A stretch of DNA of 64,000 nt from an uncultured Flavobacteriaceae bacterium (GTDB taxonomy: Bacteria > Bacteroidota > Bacteroidia > Flavobacteriales > Flavobacteriaceae), in contig CALFUL010000021.1 in NCBI GenBank assembly GCA_937929935.1, positions 1-64,000 on the forward strand, read 5' to 3'. Of the stretch, positions 50,216-56,923 are shown one piece after another. Positions within the stretch are counted from its first letter, which is position 1. Every line of letters starts with the position of its first letter. The notes below the pieces were generated by a model. The model did not search any database. It was given only the letters and a program-made list of their open reading frames with translations, and had not been told where the DNA came from. A program made the translations under genes and the position numbers.

Positions 50216-51478
50216 ATGCAAGAATACCATATTTCAAAGTTTAATTCTTTCTACACCATTGGTCTTAACTATAAAAAGGCTGATGCTGACCTTCGAGGCA
50301 AATTCAATTTAGATGCTGTAGCGATGGATACCCTTTTACTTCAAGCCAAAGAATCAGGTATTGATGGTCTTTTAGTTACCTCAACATGCAATCGCACGGA
50401 ATTACATGGTTTTGCCCAACATCCTTTTCAATTGATTAAACTACTTTGTGATCATTCACTGGGTACCGTAGAAGAATTTCAAAAGGTTGCCTACGTATAT
50501 AAAAACAATGATGCTATTAGCCATCTTTTTAAAGTTGGTACCGGTCTTGACAGTCAAATTCTAGGTGATTTTGAAATTATAAGTCAACTCAAACAGAGTT
50601 TTGTGCGCTCTAAGAAAATAGCTATTGCGAACCCTTTTATTGAGCGTTTATGCAATGCCGTTATTCAGGCCAGTAAACGCATTAAAACAGAAACAGAAAT
50701 TTCTACTGGCGCCACCTCTGTAGCTTTTGCTTCAGTGCAGTACATTCTTAAAAATGTGCCCGATATATCAAACAAGAAAATTTTACTTTTTGGCACCGGA
50801 AAAATTGGAAGAAATACTTGTGAAAACCTAATAAAACATACCAAAAACTCTGATATTACCCTAATCAATAGAACCAAAACTAAGGCCGAAGAAATTGCAG
50901 GTAAATTTAATTTGGTGGTTAAAGATTATGGCGATTTACAAACTGAAATTAGAACCACAGACGTTTTGATTGTTGCAACAGGAGCTCAGAAACCCACCAT
51001 AACCAAAAGCCTTATTCATAGCAAAAAGCCGCTATTAATCTTAGATTTATCAATTCCTAAAAATGTGGCTGATGATGTCAAAGGGTTAGCCATGGTTACC
51101 ACAGTTCATTTAGACCAACTTTCGCAAATTACTGATGAAACCCTTGAACGCAGAAAGAAATTTATTCCGCAAGCTGAAGCTATTAATGAAGAAATTAAAG
51201 ACGGTTTCATTAAGTGGCTTGAAACTCGAAAATTTGCGCCTGTAATTAAAGCTTTGAAACAAAAATTAAGCGATATCAAAGACGAAGAGATCGATTATCA
51301 ATCAAAAAAACAAAAAGACTTTAGCAAGGATCAAGCTGATATTGTTTCAAACCGAATTATTCAAAAGATTACCAAACAATTTGCCAACCATTTAAAAGAT
51401 GATACTGTTGATGCGAATCACAGTCTCGAATTACTGAAAAAAATCTTTCAACTTGAAATCGATGCTCAAAATGAATAA
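50216..51478 (+). CDS. hemA: Glutamyl-tRNA reductase
   Basis: First committed step of the C5 haem pathway: reduces glutamyl-tRNA to glutamate-1-semialdehyde with NADPH. The 420 residues show the catalytic Cys58 in TSTCNRTELHG, the GSQILGDFEI-like motif (LDSQILGDFEI), and the nucleotide-binding IGRN segment (GTGKIGRNTCENL). A dimerisation helix ends the protein. The stop overlaps the start of the hemC-hemD gene (ATGAATAA), showing translational coupling. Confidence 0.96.
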   Translation: MQEYHISKFNSFYTIGLNYKKADADLRGKFNLDAVAMDTLLLQAKESGIDGLLVTSTCNRTELHGFAQHPFQLIKLLCDHSLGTVEEFQKVAYVYKNNDAISHLFKVGTGLDSQILGDFEIISQLKQSFVRSKKIAIANPFIERLCNAVIQASKRIKTETEISTGATSVAFASVQYILKNVPDISNKKILLFGTGKIGRNTCENLIKHTKNSDITLINRTKTKAEEIAGKFNLVVKDYGDLQTEIRTTDVLIVATGAQKPTITKSLIHSKKPLLILDLSIPKNVADDVKGLAMVTTVHLDQLSQITDETLERRKKFIPQAEAINEEIKDGFIKWLETRKFAPVIKALKQKLSDIKDEEIDYQSKKQKDFSKDQADIVSNRIIQKITKQFANHLKDDTVDANHSLELLKKIFQLEIDAQNE

Positions 51479-53051
51479 GATAATACGCATAGGAACAAGA
51501 GAAAGCGAACTCGCTCTTTGGCAGGCCAATACGGTCAAAGATCAATTGAAAGCTTTAGGTTTTGATTCAGAATTGATATTGGTAAAATCAACTGGTGATC
51601 TAGTTCTTGACAAGCCTCTTTACGAATTAGGAATTACAGGTATTTTTACCAAAACCTTAGACATTGCTATGCTTAATGGCGAAATTGACATCGCAGTGCA
51701 TTCTCTTAAAGATGTGCCCACCGCTTTACCAAAAGGCATTGTTCAAACGGCAGTTTTAGAGCGTGGTAATTATCTTGATATTTTAGCGTACAAAAAAAAT
51801 CAAGAGTTTCTTAGCGAAAGAGATGCCGTTATTGCAACGGGTAGTCTTCGCAGAAAAGCACAGTGGCTGCATCGGTACCCAACGCATACTATTGTAGATT
51901 TAAGAGGTAATATTAATACCAGGCTTGAAAAATTAGATTCAAATGACTGGAACGGGGCCATTTTTGCTGCGGCTGGTTTAAACAGAATCAATTTGAATCC
52001 GGAAGATACTATAGGACTTACCTGGATGGTTCCGGCACCAGCTCAAGGAGCCATTGTTGTAGTTGCTAGAGAAGAAGATGAAGAAATTATAGCCGCTTGT
52101 CAACAATTGAATCATGAACCTTCTGAACTGTGCACTTCAATAGAGCGTGAGTTTTTAAGACTACTAGAAGGGGGCTGCTCAGCGCCTATTGGAGCACATG
52201 CTAAAATGGATTTTGAAAACAAACAGATAACCTTAAAAGGAGTTTTACTTACTGTTGATGGCGCCAAAAGATTAGAATCTGAGTTTAGTGCTGAAGTAGG
52301 TAATCATCAAAACTTAGCTAAAGATTGCGTTAATAGCATCTTAAGTAGAGGAGGTAAACGTTTGATGAGCGAATTGCAACATGTAGAACGCAAAACAAAC
52401 ATATTTTCTACTAAAAAAATAACCAAGGATCAACTACAATTGTTTAATGATAAACTAAAGGTTGTATCTGATGATTTTATCAAAGTTAGTCCGGCTAGAA
52501 TTCCTGAAAAAATTCTAAAAACCCCAATTCGCAATGTGGTCATCACTAGTAAAAATGCTGTAGAATCTATATTGACTATGGTTTCTTCTCAAGATTTAAA
52601 ATTTGAGAATATCTTTTGCGTGGGGCGCAAAACACGCCGACTCATTGAGCAAAAAATAGGCAAGGTAACCCACATGGAAAAAAGTGCAAAGAAACTAGCT
52701 GAGTACTTAGTTGATTATCTTGAAGGCACTGAATTAACCTATTTCTGTAGTAACATTCGCCTTGATGACCTGCCCACTATTTTAAAAGAAAATAATATTG
52801 AGGTTACTGAAATTGAAACCTACAAAACCAAGCATGATTCAGTTGCCATTGAAGAAGGTGTAGAAGGCGTTATGTTTTATAGTCCGTCAACAATTGAAAG
52901 CTATTTGTTGAAAAATAAAGCAGATAAAATTGCCTATTGTATAGGCGAAACAACTGCCACAGAAGCACGTAAACATTTTGAAGATGTTCGAGTTGCTAAG
53001 ATTCCTGACACAGAGCGTTTGATTGCTTTGGTTAATGAGCATTATGGTTGA
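51471..53051 (+). CDS. hemC: HemC-HemD fusion: porphobilinogen deaminase / uroporphyrinogen-III synthase
   Basis: Residues 1 to about 305 are porphobilinogen deaminase (IGTRESELALWQ, HSLKDVPTALP, TGSLRRKAQWL, DLRGNINTRL, and the dipyrromethane-cofactor Cys in GGCSAPIGA near 235). The rest, from about 320 (IRNVVITSKNAVESI), is uroporphyrinogen-III synthase (YSPSTIESYL, CIGETTATEA). Separate genes are usual, but fusions of this order occur in Bacteroidota. The ATG at 51471 overlaps hemA; an ATG at 51453 is less likely. Confidence 0.94.
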   Translation: MNKIIRIGTRESELALWQANTVKDQLKALGFDSELILVKSTGDLVLDKPLYELGITGIFTKTLDIAMLNGEIDIAVHSLKDVPTALPKGIVQTAVLERGNYLDILAYKKNQEFLSERDAVIATGSLRRKAQWLHRYPTHTIVDLRGNINTRLEKLDSNDWNGAIFAAAGLNRINLNPEDTIGLTWMVPAPAQGAIVVVAREEDEEIIAACQQLNHEPSELCTSIEREFLRLLEGGCSAPIGAHAKMDFENKQITLKGVLLTVDGAKRLESEFSAEVGNHQNLAKDCVNSILSRGGKRLMSELQHVERKTNIFSTKKITKDQLQLFNDKLKVVSDDFIKVSPARIPEKILKTPIRNVVITSKNAVESILTMVSSQDLKFENIFCVGRKTRRLIEQKIGKVTHMEKSAKKLAEYLVDYLEGTELTYFCSNIRLDDLPTILKENNIEVTEIETYKTKHDSVAIEEGVEGVMFYSPSTIESYLLKNKADKIAYCIGETTATEARKHFEDVRVAKIPDTERLIALVNEHYG

Positions 53052-53091: not shown

Positions 53092-53448
53092 ATGCGAGAT
53101 TTTAGAAAACTTGACATTTGGAAAAACGGAATTGAAATTGTAAAACTCATTTTTAAGTCATCTAGTTCTCTGCCATCTGAAGAAAAATATGGTTTAAGAA
53201 GTCAAATTACGCGCGCTGCCATTTCTATACCTTCCAACATTGCAGAAGGGTGCAGTATAAATAGCCAAATTGAATTCAAACGATATTTAGAAATTGCGAT
53301 GGGTTCGCTTTTCGAAGTAGAAACACAATTAATAATTGCCAAAGAATTAGAATTTATAAAATCCGAAGAGCTTAAACCAGTTTTTGACTTACTTAATAAA
53401 GAAGCAAAAATGATAAATAGCTTAATTCAGAAAATCAAAAATAGCTAA
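53092..53448 (+). CDS. Four-helix-bundle protein (23S rRNA intervening-sequence family)
   Basis: A 118-residue protein of the IVP/S23 four-helix-bundle family. It has MRDFRKLDIWKNGIEIV at the start, then SQITRAAISIPSNIAEGCS, FKRYLEIAMGSLFEVETQL and a terminal helix. Such genes are found inside 23S rRNA intervening sequences or scattered between genes, and their role is unknown. Here it splits hemC-hemD from hemE. A short imperfect hairpin at 53442-53468 follows it. Confidence 0.9.
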   Translation: MRDFRKLDIWKNGIEIVKLIFKSSSSLPSEEKYGLRSQITRAAISIPSNIAEGCSINSQIEFKRYLEIAMGSLFEVETQLIIAKELEFIKSEELKPVFDLLNKEAKMINSLIQKIKNS

Positions 53449-53478: not shown

Positions 53479-54507
53479 ATGATAAAAAACGATTTATTTT
53501 TAAAAGCCCTGAAGGGCGAAACGGTTGAAAGACCTCCTGTTTGGATGATGCGTCAAGCAGGTAGATATCTTCCTGAGTTCATGGAAATCAAAGCGAAATA
53601 TGATTTCTTTACGCGCTGTCAAACTCCTGAATTAGCCTCTGAAATTACCGTGCAACCCATCCGCAGATATGGCATGGATGCTGCGATATTATTTTGCGAT
53701 ATTTTAGTGATTCCGCAAGCCATGAATATTGAGGTAGAGATGAAACCTAATTTCGGACCGTATCTACCCAACCCCATTCGTTCTCAAAAAGATTTAGATT
53801 CAGTTATTATACCTGATATCAATGACACGCTTGGTTATGTCATGGAAGCCATCAAAGCAACTAAAGAAAAGCTAAACGATGAAGTGCCCCTTATAGGTTT
53901 TGCAGGCTCACCCTGGACGATTCTTTGCTATTGTGTACAAGGGCAAGGAAGTAAAAACTTTGATAAAGCCAAAGAGTTATGCTTTACCCAACCTGTAGTA
54001 GCTCATTCTTTACTTCAAAAAATTACAGATACTACAATCGCCTATCTTAAAGCTAAAGTAAAAGCGGGTGTCAATGCCTTACAACTTTTTGATTCTTGGG
54101 GAGGCATGCTTTCACCTACTGACTACAAAGAGTTTTCTTGGCAATATATGCAGCAGATCGTTGATGCTTTAAAGGATGAAGCTCCGGTAATTGTTTTTGG
54201 AAAAGGCTGTTGGTTCGCCTTAGGTGATATGGCCAAATCAGGTGCTTCTGCATTAGGAGTTGACTGGACCTGCTCAGCAAGAAACGCACGCTACCTAAGC
54301 GGCGGAAAGATTACACTTCAAGGTAATTTTGATCCCTCGCGTTTATTCTCGCCTCCGGCAGAAATTAAAAAGATGGTCACTCAAATGATTAATGAATTCG
54401 GTAAGGATAATTATATTGTCAACCTTGGTCATGGTATTTTACCCACGGTGCCCGTTGAGAATGCAAAAGCCTTTATTGATGCCGTTAAAGAGTATCGCCC
54501 CCTCTAG
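53479..54507 (+). CDS. hemE: Uroporphyrinogen decarboxylase
   Basis: Converts uroporphyrinogen III to coproporphyrinogen III. 342 residues with the [17 protein letters not shown] motif carrying the conserved Arg residues, the Asp in [22 protein letters not shown], and [11 protein letters not shown]. Complete and typical. It follows the four-helix-bundle gene by 30 bp and is followed at once by a hairpin that could attenuate or end transcription. Confidence 0.96.
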
Positions 54508-54671: not shown

Positions 54672-55235
54672 ATGATTAATGATTTCAAAGAGTATTATAT
54701 TGACGCCATACATGAAAAATATGCATGGCGCATTTGTGATTTTTGTGTGGCAAATGCCGATAGATTAAAGCGCTTTTTTCCGCAGACCTTAGCACAAAAT
54801 TTGAACCCCGATTTATCTCTAGTATTCGTTGAAACTAAGGTCAAACAATTCACTGCTAAGGAAGAGTTTCTTTTTGTTTTAAAGGAAAAAGAGAATCGTA
54901 CCGTAATAGGTTTGATTTACTTAAAAGAATTAGATTGGGATAAAAAACAAGGCGAACTTGCCTATGCCATAGGATACCAAGTGGAAGGTAAAGGCTATAT
55001 AACTGAAAGCGTTAAAGCTATTTCAGAATGGGCCTTTGAAGAACAACAATTACGTACACTTCAAATCATAGCACATCACTCAAATAATGCAAGCATTCGT
55101 GTGGCAGAAAAATGTAGCTTTACGTGGCAAAAGGTTTTAAAAGGTGCGCATACACCCCCTAACGAAGCACCGCTTGATATGGAATTATATGAACTAACAA
55201 AGACCTGCAAGGCGTTGCCAAAGGCCTCCTTGTAG
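54672..55235 (+). CDS. GNAT family acetyltransferase
   Basis: A 187-residue RimJ/RimL-like N-acetyltransferase: LIYLKELDWDKKQGELAYAIGYQVEGKGYITESV, listed here by its key parts GELAYAIGYQ and GKGYITE (acetyl-CoA-binding loop), and HHSNNASIRVAEKCSF at the C-terminus. The acceptor is unknown. The last residues, KTCKALPKASL, are encoded by a REP palindrome, and the stop codon itself lies in the REP arm, so the tail has been altered by the insertion. Confidence 0.9.
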   Translation: MINDFKEYYIDAIHEKYAWRICDFCVANADRLKRFFPQTLAQNLNPDLSLVFVETKVKQFTAKEEFLFVLKEKENRTVIGLIYLKELDWDKKQGELAYAIGYQVEGKGYITESVKAISEWAFEEQQLRTLQIIAHHSNNASIRVAEKCSFTWQKVLKGAHTPPNEAPLDMELYELTKTCKALPKASL

Positions 55236-55239
55236 GTCT
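55201..55239. repeat. REP palindrome, left border of the RAYT element
   Basis: Arms AGACCTGCAAGG (55201-55212) and CCTTGTAGGTCT (55228-55239) pair over 12 bases with one G-T pair. The GACCT-CAAGG core is the same as in the palindrome at 55810. It includes the GNAT stop codon. Confidence 0.9.
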
Positions 55240-55257
55240 AATTTTAAATGGACGAGA

Positions 55258-56760
55258 ATGAAACTTGAAACTATCGAAAAAGATTGTTATTATCATATCT
55301 ACAATAGAGGTATTAATGGTTGTGTCATTTTTCAAAATGACGAAAACAAACGGTATTTTCTTGACCTTGTTAATACCCATCTTTCAGAAAAAATAGCTGT
55401 ATTAGCTTATTGCTTAATGGACAACCATTATCATATGGCCGTTAAAATAAAGTCAGACGGTAAAGAGGCCGTACAAGCTTTTTCAAATCTGATGAATGCC
55501 TACGCAAAAGCGTTTAATAAAAGAGTGGGAAGAACCGGTAGCTTGTTCGAAAAACATTTTAAACGGATCCTAGTAAATGATGAAACGTATCTAAAAAACC
55601 TAATTGTTTATATTCATACCAATCCTCAAAATCATGGTATTGTAGACGATTTTACAAAATTTCAATTTTCTTCTTATCCGTCCTATTTTTCTAAAAAAGC
55701 AAGTTCGACTCTTGAAATAGAATCACAAGAGGTTCTGAATCTTTTTGACAATTTAGACAACATGGCTTTTGTACACAGAGAAAGCTCTGGCGATGCTGGA
55801 GAAAAAATAGACCTACAAGGTTTTGAAAACCTTGTAGGTCATACTAAAAACATTCAGGTTAAGGATCAATTCTATCAATATATTCAAGATTTACAAGACA
55901 CCATAACTGCTAAGGTTGAAGAAATAGATGGTGAGGCCACATTTCAAGAAGACAACTGGAAACGCCCCGAAGGTGGTGGCGGAAGAACACGCGTAATTAC
56001 CAATGGTAAGGTGTTTGAAAAAGGAGGGGTCAATATTTCAGGTGTACATGGCGAACTACCCAAAAGTATGCAAGATTATTTTGGTGTCAAAGATGCTGAT
56101 TTCTATGCCTGCGGATTGAGTTTGGTGCTACATCCAAAGAATCCGATGGTGCCAACGGTACATGCGAATTGGCGGTATTTTGAAATGTATGATAAAGCCG
56201 GAAACATTGTTAATCAATGGTTTGGTGGCGGTCAAGATTTGACCCCATATTATCTTTTTGACGAAGATGCTATTCATTTTCATTCAGTTTGTAAAAAAGC
56301 ATGCGATGCGCATCATCCCGATTTCTATTCCACCTATAAAAAGCGTTGTGATGAGTATTTTTATAATACCCATAGAAATGAAGCTCGTGGAATTGGCGGA
56401 CTCTTTTTTGACTATTGCAAAGCAACAAATGAAATGAGTATGCCCCAATGGTATGACTTTGTGACTGAAGTAGGTAACAGTTTTTTAGCATCATATATAC
56501 CCATCGTTATAAAACGCAAAGATCTTGATTTTACTACCCTTCAACGTGATTGGCAAGAGATAAGAAGAGGGCGATATGTTGAATTCAATTTAGTGCATGA
56601 TAAAGGCACTTTATTTGGTTTAAAAACTAACGGCCGTATTGAAAGTATTTTGATGAGTTTACCTCCTCATGTGCAATGGCGCTATGACCATCAGCCTGAA
56701 GAAGGTAGTGAAGAAGCCAAACTTTTAAGTGTATTGAAGCAACCAAAAGACTGGGTTTAA
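55258..56760 (+). CDS. hemF: Fusion: REP-associated tyrosine transposase (RAYT) + coproporphyrinogen-III oxidase (HemF)
   Basis: One open frame of 500 codons. Residues 1 to about 178 are a Y1/RAYT transposase with YYHIYNRGIN, the HUH motif His57/His59 (DNHYHM) and the catalytic Tyr118 in IVYIHTNP. Residues 185-194 are encoded by a REP palindrome. From residue 201 (VKDQFYQYIQDL) to the end is a full-length HemF of 300 residues with DNWKRPEGGGGRTRV, VHANWRYFE, WFGGGQDLTPYY, EARGIGGLFFDY and GLKTNGRIESILMSLPP. The codon where HemF normally begins is GTT, not ATG; Met169 is the nearest in-frame internal ATG. HemF oxidatively decarboxylates coproporphyrinogen III using oxygen. Confidence 0.93.
   Translation: MKLETIEKDCYYHIYNRGINGCVIFQNDENKRYFLDLVNTHLSEKIAVLAYCLMDNHYHMAVKIKSDGKEAVQAFSNLMNAYAKAFNKRVGRTGSLFEKHFKRILVNDETYLKNLIVYIHTNPQNHGIVDDFTKFQFSSYPSYFSKKASSTLEIESQEVLNLFDNLDNMAFVHRESSGDAGEKIDLQGFENLVGHTKNIQVKDQFYQYIQDLQDTITAKVEEIDGEATFQEDNWKRPEGGGGRTRVITNGKVFEKGGVNISGVHGELPKSMQDYFGVKDADFYACGLSLVLHPKNPMVPTVHANWRYFEMYDKAGNIVNQWFGGGQDLTPYYLFDEDAIHFHSVCKKACDAHHPDFYSTYKKRCDEYFYNTHRNEARGIGGLFFDYCKATNEMSMPQWYDFVTEVGNSFLASYIPIVIKRKDLDFTTLQRDWQEIRRGRYVEFNLVHDKGTLFGLKTNGRIESILMSLPPHVQWRYDHQPEEGSEEAKLLSVLKQPKDWV
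55810..55840. repeat. REP palindrome, RAYT-HemF junction
   Basis: Perfect 15-bp inverted repeat with a one-base centre: arms 55810-55824 and 55826-55840, starting GACCTACAAGG and ending CCTTGTAGGTC. It has the same core as the palindrome at 55201 and is read in frame as DLQGFENLVG. Confidence 0.95.
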
Positions 56761-56773
56761 TTAACTTTATAGT

Positions 56774-56923
56774 ATGCCCAAAACTGGAAAAGAAAAAAAT
56801 ACGCGTAACAAAGCGAAGCATACCAAGCTTCTCAAACTCAAAAAGACCAAGCTTAAAAAAGAGGCCCAACTTCGAAAAGAACGGTTAAAAGCTATCCTCT
56901 TGAAGAGTAAACAAAAAGAATAA
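56774..56923 (+). CDS. Small basic protein, hypothetical
   Basis: A 49-residue frame starting MPKTGKEKNTRNKAKHTKLL, with about 20 Lys/Arg and no acidic cluster, 13 bp after the hemF stop codon. The composition suggests an RNA- or DNA-binding or ribosome-associated small protein, although short Lys-rich frames also arise by chance. Its position right behind hemF and 14 bp before the next gene supports it as a real gene. The function is unknown. Confidence 0.55.
   Translation: MPKTGKEKNTRNKAKHTKLLKLKKTKLKKEAQLRKERLKAILLKSKQKE

Follow-up and report, generated by a model that had tools for sequence, protein, structure and literature searches.

A REP-associated transposase joined in frame to the heme synthesis enzyme HemF recurs among flavobacteria

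In an uncultured Flavobacteriaceae bacterium, a REP-associated transposase (RAYT) and the heme synthesis enzyme HemF share one reading frame. This raises the question of how a mobile-DNA protein came to stand in front of a core metabolic enzyme, and whether the cell makes the two as a single protein. The locus lies in the stretch of DNA analysed here (contig CALFUL010000021.1, positions 1 to 64,000; 64,000 nucleotides, hereafter the window). A sequence-only reading of the window had explained the locus by a REP-RAYT element that inserted directly at the start codon of hemF. The features to which the text refers are as follows:

51453..53051, + strand: hemC-hemD, upstream neighbour common to many relatives (profile, locus comparison)
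53479..54507, + strand: hemE, upstream neighbour common to many relatives (profile, locus comparison)
54672..55235, + strand: GNAT acetyltransferase gene, the last codons of which run into the 5' REP (ORF and profile)
55202..55238, no strand assigned: 5' REP palindrome, overlapping the 3' end of the GNAT gene (pattern match)
55258..56760, + strand: RAYT-HemF fusion ORF, 500 amino acids (profile matches; same architecture in 24 further loci)
55258..55791, + strand: RAYT (TnpA-REP, Y1/HUH) domain, residues 1-178 (profiles, AlphaFold2, Foldseek)
55423..55434, + strand: HUH motif N56-H57-Y58-H59 (conservation in hemF-locus RAYTs)
55609..55611, + strand: catalytic Tyr118 (33/33 hemF-locus RAYTs)
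55762..55764, + strand: Met169, last in-frame ATG before HemF, within the RAYT C-terminal helix 166-176 (sequence and AlphaFold2)
55810..55840, no strand assigned: 3' REP palindrome, 14 bp with a 3-nt loop, in-frame linker DLQGFENLVG (pattern match, covariation)
55858..55860, + strand: GTT, residue 201, at the start-codon position of unfused hemF genes (comparison with relatives)
55870..56754, + strand: HemF (oxygen-dependent coproporphyrinogen oxidase) domain (PF01218, E about 1e-132)

The description of the frame given by the sequence-only reading proved accurate. A single stop-free ORF of 500 amino acids encodes the RAYT domain, a linker formed by a REP hairpin and a complete HemF, the start codon of which is now GTT at codon 201. 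The catalytic residues of the RAYT are intact (Asn56-His57-x-His59 and Tyr118), and palindromes with the same core lie on both sides of it, one at the end of the GNAT gene and one in frame at the junction. Among profiles, NF047646 (REP_Tyr_transpos) matches residues 24 to 138 with an E value of 3e-12 and 46.6 bits, which is under its curated cut-off of 80. PF01797 matches residues 9 to 121 with 21.6 bits, just below its cut-off of 23, and PF21407 (Shedu SduA_N) matches residues 116 to 176 with 32.9 bits, above the Pfam cut-off of 27. By sequence, the RAYT half yielded no match to solved structures up to E 1 and none to PHROGs up to 0.01. The AlphaFold2 model (mean pLDDT of 78.4, pTM of 0.54) has a confident N-terminal domain, with pLDDT block means of 80 to 97 at residues 1 to 180, a disordered linker (pLDDT of <50 at residues 187 to 199) and a HemF domain of mixed confidence, with values of <50 at residues 442 to 478. 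Foldseek matched the N-terminal part to 4er8_A, the structure of a RAYT in complex with a REP hairpin (E 2.5e-6), and weakly to the IS200/IS605 transposases IS608 and ISDra2 (E about 1e-3); the best solved-structure matches of the C-terminal part were HemF structures. The HemF domain is full, as PF01218 matches residues 205 to 499 over profile positions 2 to 295 of 295. A second hemF elsewhere, which the sequence-only reading had set against its own case, was not found: the fusion ORF holds the sole PF01218 match in the window's genome, the assembly of which is 85% complete. A promoter within the fusion gene was considered and rejected. The flavobacterial promoter-like pattern TTTG-N17-23-TANNTTTG has 3 matches in the window compared to 6.35 expected, and in the fusion gene no match precedes HemF on the + strand.

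A search of the HemF proteins of relatives for a RAYT domain, as had been proposed, revealed 24 further fusions. A locus was called fused solely if both domains lay in one frame, because automated open-frame lengths disagreed for some rows with HemF only (G224: 580 versus 307 amino acids). The resulting 25 fusions, one of them in Maribacter polysiphoniae, comprise 17 from a draw of the family, the one in G003, two loci from a contig scan and five more in genus g20. In the family draw of 397 genomes, 67 had any RAYT match, 17 were fused (15 by full-length match, and G219 and G137 by the shared frame) and 9 carried a separate RAYT. The contig scan with the RAYT half identified six loci: those of M. 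polysiphoniae and of a Flavobacteriales metagenome-assembled genome are fused, and in four Arenibacter the RAYT is a gene of its own that precedes hemF. Together with the nine of the family draw, the latter make up the 13 loci with an unfused RAYT near hemF. Fusion was detected in 2 of 14 genomes of the window's genus (full-length search) and in 6 of 12 species of g20. Among the matches listed for 395 genomes drawn across the class, two were fusions, the window's and that of G137, and the others were to HemF alone. With both domains sharing one stop-free frame in 25 loci, the fusion is beyond chance.

The RAYT has a characteristic place in the genome. Assembled from loci of differing length, the usual gene order is hemC/D - hemE - EI24 - GNAT - RAYT - hemF - (SEC-C or bestrophin-like gene) - hemB. 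The RAYT lies close upstream of hemF in most loci found; in L062 and L064 it precedes hemE, and in L054 and L056 it is located 1.1 to 2.7 kb before hemF. In the first tree, one clade (100/97) united all 33 hemF-locus RAYTs to the exclusion of 23 other RAYTs, and the 38 hemF-cluster RAYTs of a larger set were again a clade (100/95) with respect to 4 outgroup rows. Partial or distant rows (L065, L017, L018, and L019) and duplicates (L088 of L016, L001 of L002, and L089 of L042) had been dropped before trees were built, and the duplicates L097, L109, L111, and L112 were left out later. All 33 members of the clade are in the hem cluster, compared to none of the 23 RAYT loci examined elsewhere (L065-L087, of which 22 are in the tree), judged by hem-cluster genes in the fetched flanks of about 4 kb per side. 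The clade was not found as a scattered multi-copy element, and the window's genome contains one RAYT match of the fusion kind. The supposed one-off insertion at the hemF start therefore did not stand, as the clade sits in the hem cluster in 33 of 33 cases, with 25 fused and 13 unfused loci. Plasmids and phages were rejected as carriers of the RAYT, giving distant matches only: 10 plasmid records, all with an identity of 34% or less, and one phage record with 25%.

Several other features of these regions were recorded. HemC and HemD of the window are also fused, forming one 532-amino-acid ORF at 51453-53051 (PF01379, PF03900, and PF02602); the same applies to L048, and in the Arenibacter loci hemC and hemD are two ORFs. 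A gene for a 23S rRNA intervening-sequence protein (PF05635, E 5.6e-35) is located at 53092-53448 between hemCD and hemE, and a small lysine-rich ORF of 49 amino acids without Pfam match follows hemF at 56774-56923. In genome G000, partial Y1 transposase matches lie directly at contig ends (C1:20-334, C27:20-310, C19:89-247, and C25:89-247), which suggests a multi-copy Y1 element that breaks the assembly; a further RAYT-like match above the cut-off is located at C29:17713-18192.

The fused or separate state changes six times on the first RAYT tree, with at least three changes forced by starred branches; fusion or fission has therefore occurred more than once. The HemF tree follows genera, the window's HemF grouping with nine unfused rows of its own genus (97/94), and the presence of the RAYT on this tree is patchy, with 18 changes over 75 rows. 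Such patchiness is consistent with a REP-RAYT unit that moves between related species and re-enters at hemF (recombination at the hem locus and targeted insertion are both conceivable), rather than with one old insertion that was inherited and often lost. We regard such movement as a serious possibility, somewhat short of an even chance, and it is compatible with the other readings considered below. The six g20 RAYTs are not placed together on the RAYT tree, where they need three changes, and in several pairs the RAYT dS is lower than the HemF dS, which suggests lateral exchange: it is 0.39 to 0.43 versus 0.83 to 1.04 in the trio L024/L099/L101 and 0.39 versus 1.22 in the pair L050/L051. In most unfused hemF genes, moreover, the ATG is intact and no scar can be seen. 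Against such movement, the RAYTs at hemF are a single clade found in the hem cluster, their distances correlate with those of HemF (r of 0.61 for 33 loci and 0.56 for 25 less redundant loci), and a single g20 clade is not rejected (AU P of 0.067). There are also two possible scars of loss. L014, from the window's genus, has half a REP, and its HemF codon 1 is ATA with a new ATG lying 7 codons before it, a pattern suggestive of RAYT loss in a fused ancestor; in L091, whose HemF is sister to a fused one, the start codon is TTG. We tentatively regard many losses of an old RAYT of the hem cluster, together with some lateral exchange, as most likely.

REP palindromes flank most of the 33 hemF-locus RAYTs. 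In 23 of 25 fusions, an in-phase palindrome forms part of the linker and encodes DLxGFxNLxG or a closely similar peptide; the two fusions without a REP linker are L022 and L026. The 21 distinct linker palindromes are open in the used phase in all 21 cases and in the other two phases in 9 and 7; the phase is thus largely dictated by the need for an open frame. Since the last GNAT codons are read from the 5' REP, the upstream GNAT protein is extended by a REP as well. The linker hairpin is kept across fusions. Among the 21 distinct REP linkers, 7 of 14 stem pairs changed on both sides and 92.9% of cells were paired, a level reached in 0 of 500 shuffles, which ignore relatedness. An initial run on 13 linkers, with the weaker L023, L059, and L060 left out, had the same outcome, with 95.6% pairing. 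Pairing is kept even at the cost of a peptide change (DPPGFENPAG in L032 and DLSDFENLTG in L101). The covariation may stem from REP exchange within the genome, or from the REP family as a whole, rather than from selection on the linker. In M. polysiphoniae DSM 23514 (L048, 4541-4927), where the fusion measures 610 amino acids, the linker between RAYT and HemF is about 130 residues long and contains two identical REP-coded stretches (DLQGVENLAGL).

The RAYT half could have been retained passively, as dead weight kept for the translation start that it gives to HemF, with HemF tolerating an N-terminal tail. The flexible linker is consistent with this, as is the stretch from Tyr118 to HemF, which varies from 72 to 192 residues across fusions. 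However, purifying selection acts on the RAYT, the dN/dS of which was 0.075 to 0.218 in those fused pairs that allowed dS to be measured, next to 0.04 to 0.08 for HemF; the window's own RAYT has no value, because dS is saturated in its pairs. Catalytic residues are kept in the hemF-locus RAYTs (N56, H59, and Y118 in 33/33 and H57 in 32/33, the exception being H57Q in L033). The low dN/dS values suggest continued use of the RAYT itself, presumably with REP hairpins as its targets.

REP numbers bear on the same issue, since they follow the presence of the RAYT. With one pattern, the median count per genome was 19 in fused genomes (n = 18), 13 in those with an adjacent RAYT (n = 9), 11.5 in those with a RAYT elsewhere (n = 10) and 0 in those without a RAYT of this kind (n = 23). 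Only 3 of the last 23 genomes contain two or more REPs; this set includes 11 from the window's genus, most of which were tested with the full-length query only, and G002, which has a distant RAYT match. In comparisons of same-genus pairs, the fused member was richer in REPs in 9 of 9. Five or more pattern matches were present in 14 of 18 fused genomes, and the remaining 4, including the window's, have 1 to 3, which may all sit at the locus. A second RAYT match in the fused genomes G049, G146, G147, G219, and G337 could account for REPs there. In the window's genome, GACCTRCAAGG-N3-30-CCTTGYAGGTC has two matches in 3.1 Mb, both at the fusion locus and none beyond it, as passive retention would allow; because these are the only REPs of the pattern there, activity of the RAYT in this organism is doubtful despite its intact catalytic residues. 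On this evidence, purely passive retention of the RAYT half appears unlikely.

The sequence-only reading had noted the loss of the hemF start codon in the window. Among the fusions, the window's GTT is one of 17 such losses. HemF codon 1 is not ATG, GTG, or TTG in 17 of 25 fusions, compared to 1 of 50 unfused genes, in an enlarged set. In the first set, start loss was found in 14 of 20 fusions and 1 of 43 distinct unfused genes (Fisher P of 1e-8); against the 13 separate-gene loci, the same 20 fusions gave a Fisher P of 5e-5. Codon 1 in these 20 is ATG in 6 and GTT, CTG, ATC (5), ATA (2), TTT, ACC (2), CTC, or GTC in 14; the 5 later fusions have ATG in 2 and ATC in 3. The 43 unfused genes have ATG in 41, TTG in L091, and ATA in L014, and with 7 later ones, all ATG, the total is 48 of 50. 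CTG, ATA, and ATC are possible rare start codons.

These data bear on whether HemF is still made separately, by internal initiation or proteolysis, with the long frame being incidental. An ATG at HemF codon 1 is retained in 8 of 25 fusions, and internal starts are therefore possible in these. The sequence-only reading had also proposed Met169 as a start for HemF in the window. This is possible there, and candidate starts lie in the linkers of L003 (TTG at -7), L028 (GTG at -2), and L031 (ATG at -20), but as a general model it is weak: 11 of the 14 start-less fusions among the first 20 have no in-frame ATG, GTG, or TTG from HemF codon -25 to +18. Start loss is, moreover, concentrated in fusions. 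Separate production as the general rule is accordingly improbable. Dependence on HemF may differ between species. HemN was above the cut-off in 21 of 24 genomes tested, and therefore HemF need not be strictly essential. It was not found above the cut-off in the window's genome (85% complete), in G150 (separate, 99% complete) or in G337, a fused genome that is 96% complete and has TTT at the HemF start. For this step, some species may thus have HemF alone, and most would have two oxidases.

That a REP-RAYT recently entered the hemF start in the window's organism alone, as the count of only 2 fused genomes out of 14 in its genus might suggest, is very improbable; as a private event it is ruled out by 24 other fusions with the same RAYT clade and mostly the same linker type (lateral arrival belongs to the movement between species discussed above). 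An assembly or sequencing artefact, conceivable for a fragmented genome of 40 contigs and 85% completeness, has a negligible chance, given both domains in one frame across 25 loci, some on contigs of more than 4 Mb and one in a named strain.

The explanation that we favor is that a REP-RAYT locus beside hemF made HemF its C-terminal domain by loss of a stop codon and decay of a start codon. A REP-flanked RAYT with intact catalytic residues would have resided in the heme gene cluster of some flavobacteria and lost its stop codon in several lineages, whereupon the 3' REP would be read through and connect the RAYT in frame with HemF. Translation of HemF could thereafter begin at the RAYT start, and the old ATG would decay. 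With HemF translatable in this way and its ATG decayed, the cell's HemF is most likely produced as the C-terminal part of a single RAYT-REP-HemF polypeptide, a view that we hold with reasonable confidence. From then on, the RAYT frame would be held by HemF: the RAYT would be locked in place, because a stop or frameshift in its frame would also destroy HemF. More tentatively, a selfish or domesticated REP-RAYT may repeatedly have become indispensable by taking over the start of translation of a core metabolic enzyme, with its own REP hairpin as coding linker, which would amount to addiction by fusion. The product might perhaps have two functions and couple REP processing to the synthesis of heme.

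RAYT genes are thus joined in frame to a heme enzyme in many species, and their unfused relatives at the same place are natural controls, by which retention by fusion becomes directly testable. A palindrome here would serve at once as DNA hairpin and protein linker, and a core enzyme seems to depend on the start codon of a transposase. A protein of mobile DNA seems coupled to a gene of core metabolism in the window's bacterium and in no fewer than two dozen of its relatives.

To our knowledge, RAYTs have been described as stand-alone genes. A text search of titles and abstract openings, with partial coverage of the literature, found no report of a RAYT-HemF fusion, and the terms hemF and coproporphyrinogen are absent from the available parts of PMC6006769 and PMC3733652. 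According to the portion of PMC6006769 available, TnpA-Y1 subclasses 2.4 and 2.6 were both reported from Bacteroidetes; the former has REPs inserted within the tnpA gene, and the latter has a median length of 179 amino acids and a YIH[QN]NP motif. The NH[YF]H motif of the fusion RAYTs also fits subclass 2.1 as given there. The same survey states that proteins longer than expected were excluded, being regarded as fused genes or misannotations. According to PMC8266576, it is still open why RAYTs persist in genomes in the manner of housekeeping genes. The IS200/IS605 elements IS608 and ISDra2 share the Y1 domain fold, with weak matches, but the RAYT clade was found at only one genomic neighbourhood. 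Compared with known HemF, which the window's enzyme resembles in the full PF01218 domain and the matches to solved structures, a transposase domain plus linker of 200 residues stands in front here and the enzyme's own start codon is lost. Another of the closest known systems is the RAYT or TnpA-REP with its REPs, the REPtron (E. coli TnpA-REP, PDB 4er8), with which the N-terminal half shares the HUH motif with a single Tyr, the fold, the flanking REPs in most of 33 loci, and further REP copies elsewhere in many of the RAYT-bearing genomes, the window's having none beyond the locus. It differs from that system in that the reading frame here runs on past the RAYT, through the 3' REP, and on into an enzyme; the RAYT is fused to HemF in 25 loci and stands alone in 13 relatives.
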